From Tetradesmus obliquus (lineage: Eukaryota; Chlorophyta; Chlorophyceae; Sphaeropleales; Scenedesmaceae): a stretch of DNA of 64,000 bases. Under the pieces are notes generated by a model that was not told where the DNA came from, searched no databases, and was given only the letters and a program-made list of their open reading frames with translations. The stretch spans positions 1,348,501-1,412,500 of the forward strand of contig CP126194.1 of the NCBI GenBank assembly GCA_030272155.1. Reading direction: 5' to 3'. Numbering within the stretch: the stretch's first letter is position 1; each line of letters begins with the position of its first letter. The translations under genes and the position numbers were made by a program. Below are positions 14,813 through 27,125 of this stretch, piece by piece.

Positions 14813-14883
14813 TTGCCAGCAGCTAAGTCACATGATAAGGGCTACCAACATGGGGTAGGAACTCCTAACCACAGCTGGTATGA
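14813..14883 (+). repeat. Left target duplication and terminal inverted repeat
   Basis: TTGCCAG (14813-14819) followed by 64 bp that match the reverse complement of 27055-27118 at 63 positions. Similarity stops after CTGGTATGA on both sides. Confidence 0.85.
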
Positions 14884-15422
14884 AATATCACGCACTGCAG
14901 CGCAGCATTACTGCTGTAATGTATGTCTTTAAACATGGTACGCTCTTGTCCTAGCACAGCGGCCAAGCAGTAGGTGCTCATACACCAAGGAGGTATCCTC
15001 AATGCATATAACACATCCCATACGATCACTCGCACGTGACGATGGGGAGCGCTGAGCGCCCGTCGTCTGATAAAGGACGACAAAATTTACAACATGCCAT
15101 ACATGGCCACTAGGACAGTCAACTTTGTATGACAGTAGTACAAAACGGTAAAGCAGGCATACACATTCCCCCATTACATGCAATTTACACTACTGCCACT
15201 CCTGCTTCTTGCGAGGAAAACTTCAACTTCAATCTGAGCTACGGTGTCAACCAAGTGGCGTCACTGACAAGGTGTCACTACCCAGGCTACCAAGGACTAC
15301 AAGAGGATGGAAGACTGTCAGTGCCGTTGCCCCCGAAGGGCATCGTGGCTCTTCGGGACGGCGCTGACCAGGTGTTGTTATGGTTGCAGGTAATACTAGA
15401 CGACGTAGGAGCAGAAGCAGGA

Positions 15423-15554
15423 GCTGCACATGCTAATCTGAGGTTCAGCAGCCACGGTGGCCTTTCGGGGGACCACTTCTTGCCATGTGAGTGCGCATTA
15501 TGTTGCATGATGCTGATGCTTGTAATGAATGCAATTCGGCAACTTTCCTTATAT
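15423..15554 (+). repeat. Dispersed repeat, copy 2
   Basis: Nearly identical to 8094-8225, with only a few differences. It lies inside the candidate transposon while the other two copies lie outside, so it is not specific to that element. Confidence 0.85.
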
Positions 15555-15583
15555 AAGCAGGTGACTACGTGGCGCCCCCTCAT

Positions 15584-15607
15584 CCCCCCCCCCCCCCCCC
15601 CCCCCCC
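15584..15607 (+). repeat. Homopolymer of 24 C
   Basis: Uninterrupted C run. The opposite strand is G24, able to form quadruplex structures and prone to assembly-length error. Confidence 0.9.
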
Positions 15608-16123
15608 AGCACCCAGCAGTGTTGACGCCAATTGATGACACTGCCTCCATGCATGCATCATGTAACATAAAGAATCAAACGCAACTAGAGATGACAGAGA
15701 GCATCCTTACTGTTGCTAAGTCACTGCTGCTGCAAGTCATGCCACAGTGACTTTCTGTGTGAAATACATTAGCATAGCATACCATCATGGTATCCCGACA
15801 GCACACCCTGCTTCAACACATGAAAGGATGTTATTGATACTTGTCCGAAGTAGTAATAGGTAGCAGCCGTGGGACGTAATCATGTTTTTACGTTAGAACA
15901 GCCCATTCAAACCTGCGTGACAGGTTCGCGCTGCTACAATGGCGTCAGGAATGAATGTGCAGTTTGATCGCCGCCTTGCTGTACTTTCTGGATGCTGCTA
16001 TTGCGTACGGTGCCAAAGCGGAAGCAGACTAGACAGTGAGGCAGGTGCATTTGGCTGGTGGCGACAACATTGCGCACAAACGAACGCATAAGTGCCTGAC
16101 TTTATATTTTTACGCTTTTAACG

Positions 16124-18790
16124 ATGACGAAGCGCAGCAGCGCGCGCCAGCAAGCAAGAAGGTGGGCTGCAGGCAGTTGGTTGACAAATGCTACCTGCTC
16201 AGCTTGCAGCGCGAACTCTGTTGATGTCAACACTCAATGCTTGGGACTAAATACCACGGGTTTGACATATCCGCAGCTGGCGAAACTCACCAAGGCTGCA
16301 GCACAGGCGCTTGGCAAGCAGCAGCAGAAGAAGAAGCAACAGCAGCAGCAGCAGCACCCAGCTAAGCAGCCGCGCCAGCGCAGTAACCAGTCTGAGACGG
16401 GCAGTGTTGCTGAGCAGGAACCAGCATCAGGTGGCAGTGCCGCTGCTGCTAGCCATGGGCGGTGTCAGGCCAGAAGCCAGAAGAAGACCAAGAAACAGCT
16501 GAACATCAGCAACCTGAGGGCACGTCTGCATATGGGTGTGCAGAGGCGCAGCATGAAGATGCGAGCTGCTCCTGGTGGGGCTACTGACGTGGTGGTGTTC
16601 GTGCACTTTCCCCTTGGCCTGAATGGCAAGCTGCGCACTGTGTTCCAGGGGGTGACAAAGCAGCAGGCAGGTGCCATCCTTGGCGCGCTGATAGAAACGA
16701 CGGGCTGGGAAGACGATCGCCTGGAGGCCAAGTACCAGGAACTTGTCTCAGGTGCGGTGGTACACTGGAGCGTCCCCGCAAGGGCTGTGCCTATTGCAGA
16801 AATTCTCTTGTGTTCCTTTGCAGCGCATGGATGTGCATCAACCCCATCAAACACTATCATGCTGCACTGTATGAAGCTACTGTCCCCCCACTGTTGTGCC
16901 TGAAAGCACCTGCGTGGGTCTCACCTTCCCGTGTGCTGCTGCTTCTGCATTGCTGCACTACTCTGCTCCTCACAGGTGGCGAAGACAGTGCTGAGCACGA
17001 TGTTCAGGGGCAGCAGCTGGAGCAGGACGCCAGCAGTGACGCTGACAGTGAGTTGTGCAGTGAGGCGGAGACAGCGGAGGAAGGAGAAGCAGACGCAGAG
17101 GACGAGCAACAGCAGCAGCAGCAAGGACGGCGGCTGCGGCGCCTGCAGCAGACTGGCAGCCGTCGCGCAGCAGAGCATGCAGAGCAGCAGCAGCAGCGCG
17201 CCAATGATGCAGCAGTTCTGCAGGAGGTCGACGAGGTTGTTGCAAACGCGTGTGGCGGCATGCGCGAAGCAGTCATGGCAGTGCTCACTGGTGGGTTTGC
17301 CAGCAGAATGTGTACGTGTGATGTGGGTGCAGGTATCAGGCGTGCACAAGAATGCAGATGTAACTGCCTGAAGCTGTTGCAGTATGCTTGTATGGGTTGT
17401 GCATGTTCAAAAAACCATATCAATGCGTTGAAAAGCTGGTGGTGCGTGTCGGTCAATATGGCAGTTGCTGTGCTGTGAAGCACCAATAAGGAACGTGCCT
17501 GCTTTGAGGTGAGCAGAGTCTGCTCAAACGCCGCTGCTAGCACTTGGGATACCCCTGATCTGGTGTTGTCTGCTGCTCCCACCTGTGCTCGCCACTGCTC
17601 AACCCTTGTACCCCAGGTGCGCAGGCTGACGGCTGTCTGGCCGAGATCACCAAGGGCCAGGTGCGCACAGCCGTGGAGGAGCAGACTGGCTGGAGCCTGG
17701 ACCGCGAGACTGGCTCAGCAGCACTGCGCAGGCTGTTCAGCAAGGTTCTGGAAGAGCTGCACCCGCAGTTCTGGTCACAGGTAGGTGAACTCATGTGCAT
17801 CCGCGCGCTGCTAGCTTGCGGGGCTTGGCGTTTTGAGGCTGCCCCAAGTTGCTTCGATTTGTCGCATGCAGGCCATTTAGCTTGCTCCACTGCTTCAGTA
17901 TACTTGCATGCCATGATGCCGCTGCTCTTGCCATTGAGTTGGTGCTCTTGATGCATGAACAACCAGAATGTCAGCATCCCATATTCATCAAGTTTAGATT
18001 CCTTTTGCGTGTTGTTCTGGAGCTGATGCTGCTTGTTGCCGCCCCTGCTGTCGTGCTGCTGTGCTGCTGAATATTGGCTGGTGCTTATCCGGCCCTGTGT
18101 GTTGCCACAGGACCAGCAGCAACAGGCGCAGCACCAGGAGCAGCAGCAGCAGGAGCAGCAGCAGCAGGTGCAGCAGCAGGAGCAGGAGGAGCAGCAGCAG
18201 CAGGAACAGGAGGCAGCTGCAAGCCGTGCCTCAGCTGGCCCACGCCGCCAGCAGAGGAAGGCAGCAGCAGGTGCCAAGCAGGCCGTGCTGGCTGTGCTGG
18301 GCAACAGCCAGAGCCCGTCAGCTGCGGCAGCAACAGACAAGGCTGTCAAGGCATCCCAGCGTGCAGCGCTGCCGGTTGAGGTGCCTGCTCCTGCCACTGT
18401 CGCTCAAAAGAAGATGGTTCAGCAGCTGCCATGCGATGGACTGGTGCGTAGAGCCTGAACATGTGCTGGTTCCTTGCAATGCATGTTTTGTGGTCTTCTG
18501 CGAGCAGCTTGCTTGCGTGTTGTCTGTTGTCTGCTGAGATGTTTCTGAGGGGTTCTGCGGCATATGAATTGCAGGGCATCAACGTGGAGGGAATGCTGCA
18601 CCAGCTGGAGGCTGCGCTGGGCCGCAGCAAGGCAGCAAGCGGCAGCGCGAGTGGCATCCAAGCTGTCGAGGACGACCTGGACTATGCTGAGCGCCTCCTG
18701 GGCGTGTGCAAGCCGCCGTCGGGCCGTCTTGTGGCTGCGTTGGCCAAGGGGCGGACCGCACTCAACACACAGAAGATTGGGCTGCAGTAG
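16124..18790 (+). CDS. Gln-rich protein with DEK-C-like domain, possible transposon cargo
   Basis: Five exons close in phase: 16124-16751, 16976-17290, 17617-17780, 18111-18443, 18575-18790, 551 residues. Order: a basic and poly-Gln N-terminus; an unassigned globular stretch (NISNLRARLHMGVQRRSMKM to ETTGWEDDRLEAKYQ); an acidic Glu/Asp stretch; then a helix-rich module GMREAVMAVLTG ... LAEITKGQVRTAVEEQTGWS ... ALRRLFSKVLEE that matches the DEK C-terminal DNA-binding fold (T-x2-x-VR-x2-LE-x2-G-x-L pattern); a Gln tract; and a helical C-terminus. DEK-C domains bind DNA and are found in chromatin proteins. The DEK-C call is by pattern, not alignment. The start at 16124 is the first in-frame ATG in this open frame, and an unseen upstream exon is possible. 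No lesion was seen, unlike in the neighbouring transposase. Confidence 0.68.
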
Positions 18791-21700
18791 CTCATGTGCG
18801 CTCCTAGCGCACAGTTGGTGTGAAGCGCGAGGTTGTGGCCGGGTCAGGCAGGCGTTGCTGTTGGGAATGTTGCACCGTGGAAGCATGCGTTGGTGTAGGT
18901 TTGAGAGAGTGGCTTCCCTAATCCCGCCATGTGTTGCTGTCAGTGCAGCAGCGGTGTGTCACTGGCAACAGCGCAGTGTTCACAATCAATTGTGAGCGCA
19001 AGCACAGTACTCAGTGGTCAGCTGAGTCACCTTATAAAAGCTACCAACATGGCAGTGGTGGTGACACTTGGCATGCATGTTCACACTGTCTATGATGATG
19101 GGCCAAGTATATATGCTGCGACAACGTAATATGACTGATGATGTGCAGCAGGCCATCTTGTGCAGCTGCTGCGGTGTGGGTGGCGTGCTGTTGCCACAGG
19201 TTCTGATATGTGCACAAGCAGTAGGTGCTCAGGCTGCGCTGGCGTTGTTGAAAAATGGAACTTGCAGAGCTAGTGCCTTCAGCTTTCTTGCGTAACTTCG
19301 TAGATGTGTTGTGCATGCATGTTGTAGCAGCAACTATACTTTTGAGAATGCTGCAAGCTCAATGTGTGGTGCTGCTGCCTCTGTCCAAGGGCTTGGTGTT
19401 ACATGCAGTACATGTTTTACTTTGATACGCATGCACGCAGACGGTGCATGCGCATGGGCACTCTGGTGTGGTGGGCTTGTTTGGGGTTTGTGTTATCTGT
19501 ACAAGTGTGCACAACACCGGCTGCATGGCAGCACGTGCAGCAAAGCAACTCGTGACTTTGCTGCATATGTAGCATGAACGGTTTCTTTGTGTGCATATGT
19601 GCTTGTGCAAACAGGCGTGCGGTAGCACGCAGCTGTTCAAGGCGAACCTTTGGTGTTGTGGCGGTGATTGACTGCAGTACAAGCAGGCTCGAGTTGAGTG
19701 GCTGACTGGCTTCAGGCTGCTCTGCGCGTGTGGCCGCTTTAGAAGGCGCATTGTTGCAGTGTGACTACAAGGCTGCTGCGGCTGCAGCCCATGTAGAACA
19801 TGTAGTGTTTGCACACCCAGGCAGTCCCTTTACACAGTGCTTTTATGGCTTCGCCGGCGGTGTGGTTGTGTTGACAGTGTTGCACACGGCAAACAGTTGG
19901 TGTGGCGTGCAACAGACTGGTAGCTGCTGATGACAACATTTTTGTGGCTTCAAGGGTAACGTAACATGTTGATTGTGAGCTGGAGAGTTGCATGACACTG
20001 CAGACTGTTGTCACTGTCCTTGGTGCCGCCTGCCCTGCCGCACCTGGGCAGGCTGTGTGCGCTGTATAAATTTAGGGCAGCAAGGCTGTCAATGCTGCAT
20101 CTGCAGCATATGTCTTCACACAGCCCAACAACACGTGCTGCCCTTACACAATGAGTGGAGGTGCCAGCACACCTCAACATACAGCCTCTGCTGCAGGCCG
20201 GTGCTACTCAGCCTCTGGCGCCCTCATCCTCGCCTTGTCGTCGCTCGTGTGCTGCACACGGACACCAAAGGTTGCACCATCATTGCTGGTGTGTGCGGGT
20301 TGCCGCACACGTGTACGTGCAACGGCAACCTGTACACACCAGCAATCTGTGTAGTACACAGAGCGCGTTAGCGGGGCCGGGGTGTGATGGCCGCCCTCGT
20401 CACACAGCATCGCGGTGTACAACCTACATGGCAAATCAAAGAATAGCGCTGGTAACTTGAAAGCGCAGTCATGCATCCACTGTTGCCCTCGGGCCTCGGT
20501 GGGTGTTTACACTCATTTTTATACAAGATGTTGTTGTGCGCAACCAATGAAGAGCTTTCAAAGCAGGTGTGTGCAGGTGGCTCATTTGGATCTCAGTGAG
20601 GTCAGCAATGGACGTTGCTGGCGCACTCGAAGCACTATGTCTGACATTCGACAGTATACGCATGTGCCCTGTCTTGATGCTGATTTCAATTGTTGGCGGC
20701 AGCATGGCTGCGCTGTCTGTAACCCACTCCATGCGCCTGTGGGCTTGATGCTTATAGAGGCGCAATGCATGTGCAACAGAAGCCCCCAGTGGGGTACAAG
20801 TGTTGTACCAAACACCAAGTGACCACCTGCTGATGCTGACCAGCACTAGCCACGACTGCAGAACCAGGTTTATTCCACACATGTCTGCGTTTTACTGAGA
20901 AATGGAGAATGGCAATGGCGCAACTCATACCGACAGCAACAACGCCAAGCGAGTGCGCCTGCAATCGTCATGCGGCATCATCGTTGTTGGCCTGAGCCTG
21001 AGTAGGCCTGCCACGTTTGCGCTGGATGGTATATGTGTGCTGGATGGTATGTGTGTGCTTTGCAGTGCCGCACCACGTTGCTGCTGGCCTCTATCCCGGT
21101 ACTAAATAGTTCCGCGCAAAATTGATTGAAATGCAGTCACACTGCTGCTAATGTGCGATGTTACGCACTGCATGGTGTTGTGCGCACAGCAGCGGCGCAT
21201 AACAAGGTCAGCTTCATGTCTTTGTCAGATAGTTCTTGCACGTTATAGTTGAACTGTCCGGCTTGAGCTATGCTGCTGCCATCTACATACACAATCCTAG
21301 GTGCAGGTGTGTCGTTCAAGGACAGTTGCATGCTTGCATCAGAATGCAGTACCTCTCAGGACACAGCAGCAACAGAAAGCGGCCGCCTTTCTGCAGTGCC
21401 TTAGCTGTACATGCCTGACAATAGTCAGCTGGCTCGCCATCACTGCGCTAGTGCAGCAATGCTGTCAGTGCCGAAGAAATATGCCTCAGGGTGTCAGTGT
21501 GCCTCAGCCAGTGACCCATCATGCCAACACTGCTCAATGCAGTGTGGCCTGGCCGGCTGTGGGTTCAGCTCCTATGACAGTGCATATTAGCCAGTAGGCC
21601 AAGCGCTTGGCTGCAGTCAGCTGAGGCGCTGCGCAGGCCAGGCCGCTGCACTGCAGCTCATTGCATAACTGAATCTTTCATCAACCTCATCCTTCATCAC

Positions 21701-22123
21701 GTTACCCATTGCATAGTTGACTCTATTGAGCCCTTGCAAGGGCCTTTCTATTGTTCATCATGCTCTGAAGGCGTGCCCCTCCTGGCCAGCATGCCAACTA
21801 TAAAGGTGACTGCTGCCCAACTTGAGCAACCTAGACAGCTAGCCTAGGTCACGGTGAGGAGTGCACACACAACTGTACTGTTACACCCTCAGTTGACGTA
21901 CGATCATGTCAACGCATGCAGTAGCAGATGGCCACTGGGAGATGCAGTGCGCCACGTCAACTGTACGCTGCACTATCACAAGTGCTACAACGGAGCGCTT
22001 CCAGTATGGCCATGGCACTATACAACAGTAGAGTGACATACACACGAAATACATCTAGCCGCGTGATACCTGTTGTACTGCACTGGGGCCATGTCACCCC
22101 GCCATGGGCCGCAGGGCAGAGCT
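18791..22123. other. Central spacer of the transposon
   Basis: Between the convergent 3' ends of the DEK-C-like gene and the KDZ transposase. No supported gene. It contains a degenerate internal copy of the element terminus at 19019-19052. Confidence 0.5.
19019..19052 (+). repeat. Internal degenerate copy of the transposon terminus
   Basis: 29 of 34 positions match the outermost 34 bases of the left terminal repeat, in the same orientation, ending GCTACCAACATGG. No TTGCCAG precedes it. It includes TATAAAAG, so it could also serve as a core promoter. Confidence 0.6.
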
Positions 22124-25100
22124 TCACCCGCTCAGCCCCTCAAACCTAGTCACTGTTGCTTCATACCAATCATGGTGCTTTGCGGCGCTGCGCTGCAGCA
22201 GCACTGCCACAGCAACGTGCACAGCTGCCTCCTCCAGCACGTGTTTCACTGCAGCAGTGCAGCCAGCGATGGCATTACACCATGGGCCATCTGGCATGCA
22301 CCCTGCCATGCTCGCATGCAGCTCATCCGCTGCCTCTTGCCGCGAGCGGCTTGCTTCCAGGCAGACGTTCTTCACGTACAGGAAGTACTGCTGCGTGCGC
22401 TCTCGCTCAAAGCGCTGCAGCACCAGCTCCTCGATGGTGCGGGCCATCTGCAATGGCAGAATCAAACCATACAAGCAGAAATGTGGCAGCACATGAGCGC
22501 TTGTAAACCAGCACAAGAGTGCACAAAAGCTATCGCAAAATAATCTGATGCATGCTTGCGCTTCTGGCACGCAGCGACTTTGGCGCTTGACACTAGGCAC
22601 CTGGCTAAGCAGCAAATCGGCTACGCTCCTGCCATTTGCATGCCTTCTGCTCTTGCCTCTGCGCAAACGTCGCTGAAGCGCTCTGCCAGAACTGATGCAA
22701 CTGCGCCAGACCTGCTCCCCCCCGCCACGGGTACTCGCCCTTGAACAGCTTGGTCACTTCAGCCTCTGTCCAAACTGCAGGCAGCAGCTGCACTGCATCA
22801 CTGCCGGGCGCGTCCACCACCTGCCAAGTGTGCAGCATCGCCACCAGCTGCCGCACACGCTTGCGCCTGCTCTGCGCCTGTTTGCGCTGCGAGCGGGTTA
22901 TGCTGCTTGCTGCGCCCTGCTGCTGTCGCTCGTATGCCAACACAGCAAGCGCGGACACATTCTTCTCCACGTGTGCCTGCAAGCTCTTCAGCTGCTCATC
23001 CCGCAGAGCAGCCAGGCCCTGCTTGTACTCAGCGCTGCCAGGCTGCAGTGGCGTGCTGATGTCCAGCTTGGTCATCAGTGCACCCAGCTTCTCCGCAAGC
23101 TTCTGTAGGCGTGGGGCGTCCTGCCCGCGCGCGTGCAGCCAGCGCCCCTCCCTGCCAGGCAGGGCCACAGCCAGAATTGTGGCGTGCTGCTGCATCTGCA
23201 GCAGCCCCCTGCGCTGCTGGTCCACACGCACATAGTCGACCTGCAGAACACAGCACACGACCAGGCGCAAAGCACGGAAACAAGCAGATGGTGTGAGCTT
23301 CAAGTAATTGCAACCCCAAAAAGCCTTGTATGGATTGCGCAACCACAAACACCGACCAGTAACAGCCGATGCTGCTGCAACCCCCCACAAACAGTGCGGC
23401 AGCCGCTGTCACAGCGTTCTCAGATGCATGAACACAGGCTGCAGTGGCAGGACTGTGCTGGACACTGCGCTGCACCACTAAGCTCACCAGCAGCTTCAGC
23501 CGAGCGGCTGCAGCATCAAGGGCGACAGGAGCTGCAACATCAGCAGGTCCGCATGCATCCACTGCAGCAGACATCATCTCAGTCAGGCCCTGCCGCCCCG
23601 CTGCGGCCACCAGGTCTGTGTAGCGGCTGCGGCATTCCTCTGCACGGCGGCAAACAACATAAAGTTGCGCTGCAGTGCACACAGACATAGGCACAGATAG
23701 CAACTACTTGGACATCTACTGTCTGCATTCAGCAATCGCAGGTGGTGCTGGACGCACACATGTCGGACAAACAGCTCAGGCCCCAGCTGCAACACAACAC
23801 CCGCATCTTGGCGATGTTATTTGGAAGCCTTGCTGCCACTTACCCAGCTTGCGCACAAGGCTCCTGTGCTGCTCCACCATGAACGGCACAAACTCTGCAA
23901 GCCGTGCAGCTGCAACGAAGCGCAAGAAGTCGTCGATGCAGTCCAAGTAGTTGGGCTTAGCCATGTACCTCGTGACGGAGGTGAGAGGCTTCAGCTGAGC
24001 CCACAGCTGCTCGCAGGTCTCGCCAACCCTGCGGCCAGCACCTGCGCAAGCAGCAAGTTGGCGCGCAGAGCCATCGTCAGTCATGATGCCTCAAGCTACG
24101 CTTACACTCGAGGTTTGAATACACGGCCAACAAGCGCTGTCATCTGCAAATTGCACAGCAGTGCTGCGCACCGTGCAGCCATGCAGACTGTGCGTGTGTT
24201 GTTTTTGTCAATGCCAAACTGTACGCTAGCCACCTGCTGTAACTGCACCAAGATGTGCACGCAAGAACCCTGCGCAAACACAACATACCTGGTAGGTACA
24301 AGCCGGAGTTGCGCAGACAGCACGTCGCTCCGTGCCCCTTGGCATGCCACCACGGCAAGCGGACGTGAGCTGGCTCAGCCGCTGGTTGTGGCTTCAGCAG
24401 CTGACGGTGGCGGTAGTAGCTGCAGCCGGTGTCCAGGTACATTATGTGCACGTGCGCGTCCACCAGCAGCTCCTCCAGCGCCAAGTCATAGTAAGGAAGC
24501 GCTCCGGTGCCGGCATTGCCAGGAACATGCCCAGCAGCGGGAAACCATGGCTGCACACGCCGCCAGCCAGGCCGCACTCGTCGCTGATGCCACTGTGCAG
24601 CGACGTCTCCCTTGCACAGCTCAGCTGCGGATGGCACTTGCCCGCCACCTCGATGCTGACCTCATCAGCGCCAAGCTCGGCAAGCTTGGTCTGCTTCACG
24701 TGCAGCTGGCTGTTGCCCTTCATGTCCCACAGCCTGGTGTGTGCCCTGCCTAAGAAGCGGCCTAGCACTGCAAAAGCCTCGCTGTAGCCGCCACTCCTGC
24801 TGGCGGAGGCGTACCGATTGGACTTGACATTGGCATCAAAATCCACAGCTATGATGGCCGGCTTGCTACTGATGCTGAAGATGGACAGGATGTCGCGCGC
24901 ATCAGCTAGCAGTGTGAACAGCAGAAGGCGAGCAACACGGCTGGGTGTTAGTCACTGAGGCCTGCTCCAAGGATGTTGCCAGGGAGTTTGCATGGTGCAT
25001 GTAAGCAATCTGGTCACAAAGTGGGACGTGTTGCATGCGCTAAGCCAAGTACACAACATGCAGCGTGCAGAGCGCCCATGCCAGCATGTACACAATGCAT

Positions 25101-26555
25101 CTTGCGGCAATGTCGCAAGTGCTACACCAACAGCTGCAACATAAACACAGGGCCAGGCAGCCACAGCATGCTTGAGCCCGGCTGCCAGCTCACCTGCTAG
25201 CAGGCCCCTCTCCAGTGCGCTGCGCTGTAGCGTACCCGCAGCAGCAGCACCTGCACCACACAACAGCATACATACATGGACTGCAGCACAAGCGACATGG
25301 CAGCAGAAGCGCAGCTGACCTGCAATGGCTGCAGCTGTGTGGCATGCGCTGCTGGCTAAGAGGTGATACATGCCAACCCAATAGGCAGATTCGCTTAGCC
25401 GCTCTCACCTGGGTCAAACAGATGCTCTGCAGAGTGGCGAGGTGGCGCCACCGCTGCTGCTGCCTCTGCGGCACCTGCACATGAGCAAGATCGCGTCACA
25501 CGCTGCCTGCCGGTCACAGCGCTGCAGTGAGGCTGAAGCGCTAGTGGAACACATCATACCTGCCGACTCAGGCGTGCCAGCGCATGCTGGGCATAGCCCC
25601 GCAGGGCCAAAGAAGCTCAGCTCGGCGCCGACCAGCGCGTGGGGGTCATGAGCATACTCTGCTGCACGGCTGTACTCCAGCCACGCCGCCTGTATATCTC
25701 TGCAAGCAAGCACCATCCTGTCAAGGCGGCAGCCCACACAGCGCACAGCATCGCTAGCGTGCAAGCGCTGCATTAGCGATGCTCACCGTTGGTCAATGGT
25801 TGAAACTGCGCCTCGGCCAGTTGGGCATGCTGCTGACGCTGCTGCTGCTGCGGTGGCACCATCTATGACCACAGCAACAGCATTGCAGTCACCTGCAAAT
25901 GTGCCGTGCTGAGGCCACCCGGAAGCACCAGGTGCCTGTAGAACTCCAGGAGCTGCTTGTCAAACCAGGTGTTGGGCACAACAGGACTGCTCCCCCAGCA
26001 GCCAGCTGCGGCAGGGCTGAGCTCCCATGTGGTGCCACATGCGTCGCACGTGACAGTTGGCACTGACAGCCAGAAGCTGGCGCCCAGCATGTGGCAGGCA
26101 ACTGACCTGCTGCTGCCAGCTGTTATGCAGGTGTCACCGCCGTGCACTCTGATCACACCGCTGCCGCAGCACCAGTGACGTGAGAGCGCTACCACCATGC
26201 GCTCGTTCATCAGCTGCACAAGACTCTCCCGCTGCTTCAGCTGGTCCTCAGACTGCTGGCATGCCTCGTACTGCTGCAGGCTGTTGATGTTGGCAGGCCT
26301 GCGTGCATCCCAATTGAGCCGCTGCTGCTGCACACGCCGCTGGTGCTCACTGTCGCCATGACACACGTCCAGTTCTGCCCAGGTGTCTTCGTTTTACTCC
26401 ACACCATCGTCACTTGTATGTACCCGCTGCCTAGGCCTGCCTCTGAAAGCGTTTGGTGGCAGTTGGTTGGTCCTCTTACTGCTGTCCCTGTGCTGCTTTA
26501 GGTTTGCTTCGACAAAGTTGAGCCTCTGCTGCGACGCAGTCACGAACGAAGACAT
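22124..26555 (-). pseudogene. KDZ-family transposase, degraded copy
   Basis: Exon-like blocks in order: 26555-25895, about 25850-25798, 25698-25560, 24913-24296, 24042-23846, 23653-23350, 23240-22640 and 22455-22124. KDZ hallmarks are a Cys cluster (CDACGTTWEL; LCPACAG), the DGN-like block AIIAVDFDANVKSNRY, then HGFPLLGMFLAMPAPERF, YYDLALEELL, YLDTGCSYYRH, PWWHAKGHGATCCLRNSGLYLP, GETCEQLWAQLKPLTSVTRYM, and a helical C-terminus containing TQQYFLYVKNVCLEASRSRQ. Damage: an in-frame TAA at 26396-26394 after 53 codons from the ATG at 26555, and a one-base frameshift near 24495 between PAPERF and YYDLAL with no room for an intron. It is therefore probably inactive, unless these are assembly errors. 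Exon boundaries are approximate. Confidence 0.8.
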
Positions 26556-27054
26556 GTTTTTGCATCATAGGTACATCAATCGACAGGAGAACGTGCTGCG
26601 AGAGGATGGATGAGGATGCAAGCTCAGGCACCAAGCACTGCTGCGAACAAGCCACTCGTTCAAGACTTATCGGCAAACCTCTTGTTCATGTCAAGTTACT
26701 GCCAGCACCAGGCATTAACTGCAGATGCAGTAGCACCAGTGAGCACTGGTTGTTACAACAGCTACAAGGGTGTCACTAACGTGAGCTGACAGAATGTATC
26801 CGAGATAACCCATATGACGCTGATGTCTATGCATAAACACACGTTTTTAACTTGTTGCATAATGCCACAGTGATGCTGTGCCACCCCGCACATAGTTTTT
26901 GGCACTGCAGCTGCCACAGCTGGCTGGCACTGGTGCCATGGCTGGCCATAGGGCCCCAGGTAAGCACCACCTGCAGCGGAGCTTTTCAAACAAAGGATGC
27001 TGCTTTGTATATGTAATTAATCTTTGGCAAGCGCTTCCATGGTAGGCTGGTAGG
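26556..27054. other. Right subterminal region of the transposon
   Basis: Lies upstream of the transposase start. No coding sequence recognised. It presumably holds the transposase promoter. Confidence 0.45.
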
Positions 27055-27125
27055 TCATACCAGCTTTGGTTAGGAGTTCCTACCCCATGTTGGTAGCCCT
27101 TATCATGTGACTTAGCTGTTGCCAG
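27055..27125 (-). repeat. Right terminal inverted repeat and target duplication
   Basis: 27055-27118 is the inverted partner of 14820-14883. It is followed at once by TTGCCAG (27119-27125), identical to the bases flanking the left end. Confidence 0.85.

Follow-up and report, generated by a model that had tools for sequence, protein, structure and literature searches.

A KDZ transposon family with 64-bp inverted termini and 7-bp target duplications in the green alga Tetradesmus obliquus

We have delimited, in a 64,000-nucleotide stretch of the Tetradesmus obliquus genome (assembly GCA_030272155.1, contig CP126194.1, positions 1,348,501 to 1,412,500; hereafter the window), what is very probably a full-length class II (cut-and-paste) KDZ transposon that makes a 7-bp target duplication, was probably moved in trans by an intact copy and carries a second gene, probably for a helix-rich accessory protein. 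The element proper, copy E1, occupies window positions 14820-27118 (12,299 bp). Its CAG...CTG ends and the 7-bp duplication length are proven on sister copies, the window locus itself excepted. In our judgement, KDZ transposons belong to the less well characterised eukaryotic DNA transposons. Here, within one genome, the ends are exact, empty sites of sister copies prove the 7-bp duplication, and the transposase has a full exon model; a second gene recurs in a sister family, and intact copies coexist with defective ones that moved recently.

Results

A first-pass annotation of the window had proposed 64-bp inverted termini flanked by TTGCCAG, enclosing a KDZ transposase and a second gene, and each of these components was found. 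Positions 14820-14883 (plus strand, starting CAGCTAAGTCACATG) and 27055-27118 (minus strand, ending CTTAGCTG) form an inverted repeat that differs at one of 64 positions, and the similarity ends sharply on the inner side of the 64 bp; E1 runs from CAGCTAAGTCACATG to the reverse complement thereof. Identical TTGCCAG heptamers at 14813-14819 and 27119-27125 adjoin the two ends, their 7-bp length being set by the empty sites of sister copies. A chance inverted repeat was rejected, as three shuffles of the window contained no exact inverted 24-mers against 1,014 pairs in the real sequence; 29 of these pairs fall on the diagonal of the E1 termini, the highest count of any diagonal. The GC content of the window is 56.1%, and that of the assembly is given as 56.5% (PMC12571836). 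Additionally, a terminus-like copy, 85% alike over the first 34 bp, lies inside the element at 19019-19052 (plus strand) and recurs in E2-E4, E6 and E7 and at C5:6367954; no inverted partner for it was reported inside the element, the sole one reported being the outer right end.

The pairing of these termini around a KDZ gene, proposed from the window, recurs across the genome. Searching all 17 contigs (104.66 Mb; the window lies on C4) placed the terminus at 21 positions, which resolve into eight inverted pairs plus five ends that are single or partial. Besides E1 (12,299 bp), the seven further paired loci are E2 (C4:1.308M; 12,298 bp), E3 (C4:1.4745M; 12,299 bp), E4 (C6:79k, G000:C6:79.4-91.1 kb; 11,735 bp), E5 (C16:3.987M; 7,191 bp), E6 (C7:515k; 11,720 bp), E7 (C13:4.549M; 11,741 bp) and E8 (C13:4.121M; 2,268 bp). 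The terminal inverted repeats (TIRs) agree at 63 or 64 of 64 positions in every pair, and all pairs except the 2.3-kb E8 enclose a KDZ profile match (7/8). Two further KDZ-bearing relatives, E9 and E10, were found without one or both ends. A pattern built from the first 24 bases, with one mismatch allowed and the sister family covered, gave 29 termini genome-wide; the same pattern read backwards had no match in the genome.

Exact 7-mers flank five of the eight pairs: TTGCCAG at E1, GTCGCAG at E2, CCTTAAC at E3, CAGCTGC at E7 and GATAGGC at E8. The flanks of E6 are offset by one base, such that 6 bp directly adjoin each end, or 7 on the assumption of one shared base, and the flanking 7-mers of E4 and E5 do not match. 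The joined flanks of E1-E6 and E8 (E7 was left out) were searched against the genome for empty sites, with 40 of 246 candidates scored, so that the counts are minima. E3 lies inside a dispersed repeat, at least 11 other sites of which span the junction; all 11 fetched sites are uninterrupted and hold a single CCTTAAC, and thus fix both the ends and the 7-bp length. For E8, at least one diverged paralogue (80%) is likewise uninterrupted, with a single GATAGGC. In both cases the inserted unit is the CAG...CTG segment and not a smaller, different element. The empty-site check proposed for the window was therefore answered by sister copies, E3 (11/11 fetched) and E8 (one), and not by E1, which showed itself only among the matches listed in the joined-flank search; the same was true of E2, E5 and E6.

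The flanks of E4 match at least two uninterrupted places at 91%. These paralogues suggest that the right duplication of E4 disappeared through a putative short deletion between AGCT repeats. The right flank of E4 is also found next to numerous members of the nested-repeat family described below, and E4 therefore probably inserted into such a repeat.

A sister family has related ends. Two further KDZ loci, on C10 and at C4:4.76M, match 24 bp of the terminus at 92%. A pattern derived from this stretch located nine termini, with pairs at three KDZ loci (C10, C6:5.51M and C4). Duplications of 7 bp flank two of the three pairs (CGCAGGC on C10, ACCCCCC at C6:5.51M), and the C4 pair has no matching 7-mers. 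At the C4 locus (L084, G000:C4:4754400-4754520), a right and a left end stand back to back, 10 bp apart. The second gene is recognisable in the C10 and C4 loci, with 33-39% protein identity in matching stretches, and transposase exons at C10, C4 and C6 5.81M, where one end was found, follow the exon order of E6.

The transposase gene of E1 occupies 22124-26555 on the minus strand. Its nine exons were mapped from E6, exons 1-5 to 26555-25787, 25699-25560, 25474-25409, 25250-25194 and 24905-24289, and exons 6-9 to 24041-23844, 23639-23488, 23240-22657 and 22447-22124. The KDZ match in the window is at 23920-24057 on the same strand (C4:1372420-1372557; PF18758 positions 169-214, 35.1 bits). The E6 gene encodes 973 aa in nine exons separated by eight GT-AG introns, and its spliced product scores 89.3 bits against the KDZ cut-off of 26.6; a candidate N-terminal cysteine cluster, CxC3, scores 23.3 bits in the whole protein and 25.9 as a fragment, against a cut-off of 26.6. 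E7 is open across the same nine exons, and these two open copies, E6 and E7, are 93% identical to E1. A 978-aa database protein is colinear with the E6 transposase (41% identical over 918 aligned positions), aligning well across the exon 5/6, 6/7, 7/8 and 8/9 junctions and poorly at some earlier ones. The same junctions are used from exon 1 to exon 5 in a predicted T. obliquus protein (P0006) and from exon 1 to exon 3 in a predicted Scenedesmus protein (P0009). The database proteins that support both genes of the element are gene predictions, not expression data.

The transposase genes of E1, E2 and E3 are frame-broken in exons 1, 5 and 8, and their exon-8 donor reads GC. The exon-5 lesion lies between two Asp motifs, near residues 367 and 501 of the E6 protein, which we take to be catalytic. 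All seven copies of the subfamily (E1-E5, E9 and E10) carry this frameshift, which neither E7 nor the reference E6 has; E8 does not contain the exon-5 region. The intact gene of an autonomous KDZ element is thus missing from E1, whereas E6 and E7 are open. Because its transposase is broken, E1, although full-length, is probably non-autonomous.

These defective copies are nevertheless young. E1, E2 and E3 differ at four positions in 12,299 (E3 is 99.98% identical to E1), and occupy three different sites on one chromosome (C4), each with its own target duplication. Among the flanks of E1-E8, 16 sequences of 501-588 bases, no two match at E 1e-5. All three copies lie within 180 kb of C4, a clustering with a probability of ~9e-6 under uniform placement, a figure computed post hoc when the cluster had already been seen. 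The clustering is compatible with local hopping.

E1-E3 also share a nested insert of 584 bp (14971-15554 in the window) that is absent from E4-E8. Flanked by AAGCAG at 14965-14970 and 15555-15560, it corresponds to the 3' portion of a repeat present in many copies. The repeat gave at least 45 matches (40 of 472 candidates scored), which by our count represent at least 40 separate places, E1-E3 among them. At the 20 other loci fetched, the similarity extends upstream beyond the 584-bp segment and stops at a common 3' end (CCTTATAT or nearly so), give or take one base. The insert is probably a fragment of a 5'-truncated retroelement, as in the non-LTR class, to which these features would assign it. 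It was inserted before E1-E3 split and was then carried along.

The second gene, ORF2 (16124-18790, plus strand), converges on the transposase gene and encodes 500 aa in six exons, at 16124-16161, 16277-16751, 16976-17290, 17617-17780, 18111-18443 and 18575-18790. The exons were mapped from the intact E6, and the junctions are common to database proteins, from exon 2 to exon 6 in P0002, P0003 and P0005 and from exon 1 to exon 4 in P0004. In E1, exons 2-6 are in frame. A one-base difference affects exon 1, whose frame continues through intron 1 with no stop (ORF 16100-16903). A database search with ORF2 returned these four proteins, all from T. obliquus and none naming a function. No Pfam family scored above its cut-off: PF02166 reached 18.5 bits against 25.3, on a glutamine-rich stretch, and DEK_C reached 13.4 against 24.8 on a 20-residue piece. 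Searching the PDB by sequence gave one match, which was not significant (E 0.67). A low-confidence structure model (mean pLDDT 65.5, three similar sequences) is mostly helical, and a fold search of the PDB with this model gave 42 matches, the best at E 0.72 and none at E<=0.001. ORF2 probably encodes a helix-rich accessory protein of this KDZ lineage.

Length changes in ORF2 among E1-E4 (-3, +6 and +36) fall in exons with CAG-type repeats and keep the frame, which may be a weak sign of selection. It is weak because exon 1 is altered, because steps of three are expected of CAG repeats, and because dN/dS exceeds that of the transposase in both comparisons: 0.0079/0.0172 versus 0.0032/0.0156 for E6/E7, and 0.030/0.0545 versus 0.023/0.0563 for E1/E6. 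It is conceivable, although we consider it doubtful, that this is a two-protein transposon lineage in which ORF2 supplies a dedicated transposase partner for end binding or targeting, and whose most recent spreaders, E1-E3, lost the transposase and kept most of the ORF2 frame.

Discussion

Our data suggest how defective copies could have spread recently. A KDZ transposase would recognise the 64-bp CAG...CTG ends, cut the element out and join it to a 7-bp staggered cut, and enzyme from a copy with an intact gene would act in trans on the termini shared by E1-E3. Because frameshifting disrupts the catalytic region of the transposase in each of these copies, the enzyme responsible for their movement most probably came from an intact copy. 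The most economical account is that an intact relative sharing their ends mobilised E1-E3 in trans.

Near-identity and confinement to 180 kb of C4 would also be expected had a single insertion been spread by segmental duplication rather than transposition. That account is very improbable, as the flanks of the three copies (507-588 bases per side) are without similarity at E 1e-5, each copy has a different exact 7-bp duplication, and E3 interrupts a dispersed repeat whose 11 other fetched copies are uninterrupted. An assembly duplicate is ruled out by the three different flanks and duplications. It is somewhat less improbable, but still unlikely, that E1-E3 are autonomous, each bypassing the frameshifts by splicing or ribosomal frameshifting and making its own transposase. 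The frames are open on both sides of the exon-5 lesion, and the 314-aa database protein OEZ86_006092, which derives from C4, connects exons of the E1 type and omits most of the catalytic exon. However, the reading frame is lost in three separate exons, and exon 8 has a GC donor. Additionally, OEZ86_006092 skips both conserved Asp motifs, and therefore looks like a gene-model artefact around the lesion. Mobilisation of E1-E3 in trans remains our preferred explanation.

The duplication length also needs weighing against known systems, since 8 bp is reported for Zisupton and Kyakuja-3_cRei (PMC12730594, PMC10828217) and the 7 bp observed here might be an 8-bp duplication like that of Zisupton, read incompletely. 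We regard this as the least probable of the alternatives: identical 7-mers stand next to both ends in E1, E2, E3, E7 and E8, the E3 and E8 empty sites hold one 7-mer, and the sister family gives 7 bp in two of three pairs. The fungal Kyakuja-1_LB and Kyakuja-2_LB are likewise described with 7-bp duplications and CA..TG ends (PMC12730594). An 8-bp duplication was rejected on the 7-mers of the copies, the empty sites and the sister-family duplications. The first-pass proposal of CAG...CTG termini with a 7-bp duplication accordingly holds for the copies, at exact length in five of eight pairs and in agreement with the empty sites of E3 and E8.

With 7 bp, the family falls within the 7- or 8-bp range of the KDZ superfamily and outside the 8 bp of Zisupton sensu stricto; TIRs, which Zisupton has and fungal Kyakuja_LB does not, are present in all eight pairs. 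Fish Zisupton resembles the elements described here in being a KDZ transposon with TIRs, and differs in its 8-bp duplication (cited in PMC12730594 and PMC12477816). Kyakuja-1_LB and Kyakuja-2_LB of Laccaria bicolor share the 7-bp duplication, CA..TG ends and KDZ transposase, but are described as having no TIRs and as carrying a TET/JBP dioxygenase (PMC12730594), whereas E1 has 64-bp TIRs and an ORF2 with no Pfam family above cut-off. Kyakuja-3_cRei of Chlamydomonas reinhardtii is, similarly, a mobile green algal KDZ element with TIRs, but it is reported with an 8-bp duplication and imperfect TIRs (PMC10828217). As both Zisupton and Kyakuja-3 duplicate 8 bp, 7 bp is not the sole KDZ value. E1 combines a 7-bp duplication and CAG..CTG ends with 64-bp TIRs and a convergent second gene.

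Large KDZ elements are known elsewhere. The giant KDZ elements of Ectocarpus, compared here by description only, reach 30.3 kb and reside in a brown alga, whose giant transposons have extra genes and nested insertions fixed among copies (PMC12477816); the same source also cites a KDZ element of 31.7 kb that moves in C. reinhardtii. Zisupton and Kyakuja transposons are also reported in a comparative Chlamydomonas genome study (PMC8226300). In Scenedesmus sp. NREL 46B-D3, two hypothetical KDZ-like proteins match a 532-aa query, P0007 with 64% identity over 56% of the query and P0009 with 68% over 42%; by eye, the matching stretches follow the same order. Among the papers listed in searches of the open-access literature, titles and abstract beginnings described no KDZ element in Tetradesmus or Scenedesmus. 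The annotation had expected a new full-length element description. That can be upheld for this family and alga, and, as the ends of Kyakuja-3_cRei are already described (PMC10828217), the novelty does not extend to algae generally.

The family makes it possible to ask, in a concrete case, what KDZ transposases recognise, why some duplicate 7 and others 8 bp, and what role the second protein has. It also flags incomplete database gene models: those for three KDZ copies of T. obliquus (P0006, P0011 and P0013) omit portions of the catalytic region. Elsewhere in the genome, five equal-score KDZ profile matches are spaced 23.9-26.5 kb apart on C3 (G000:C3:7390909-7489888), a pattern reminiscent of tandem copies of a ~24-kb unit that contains a KDZ exon.
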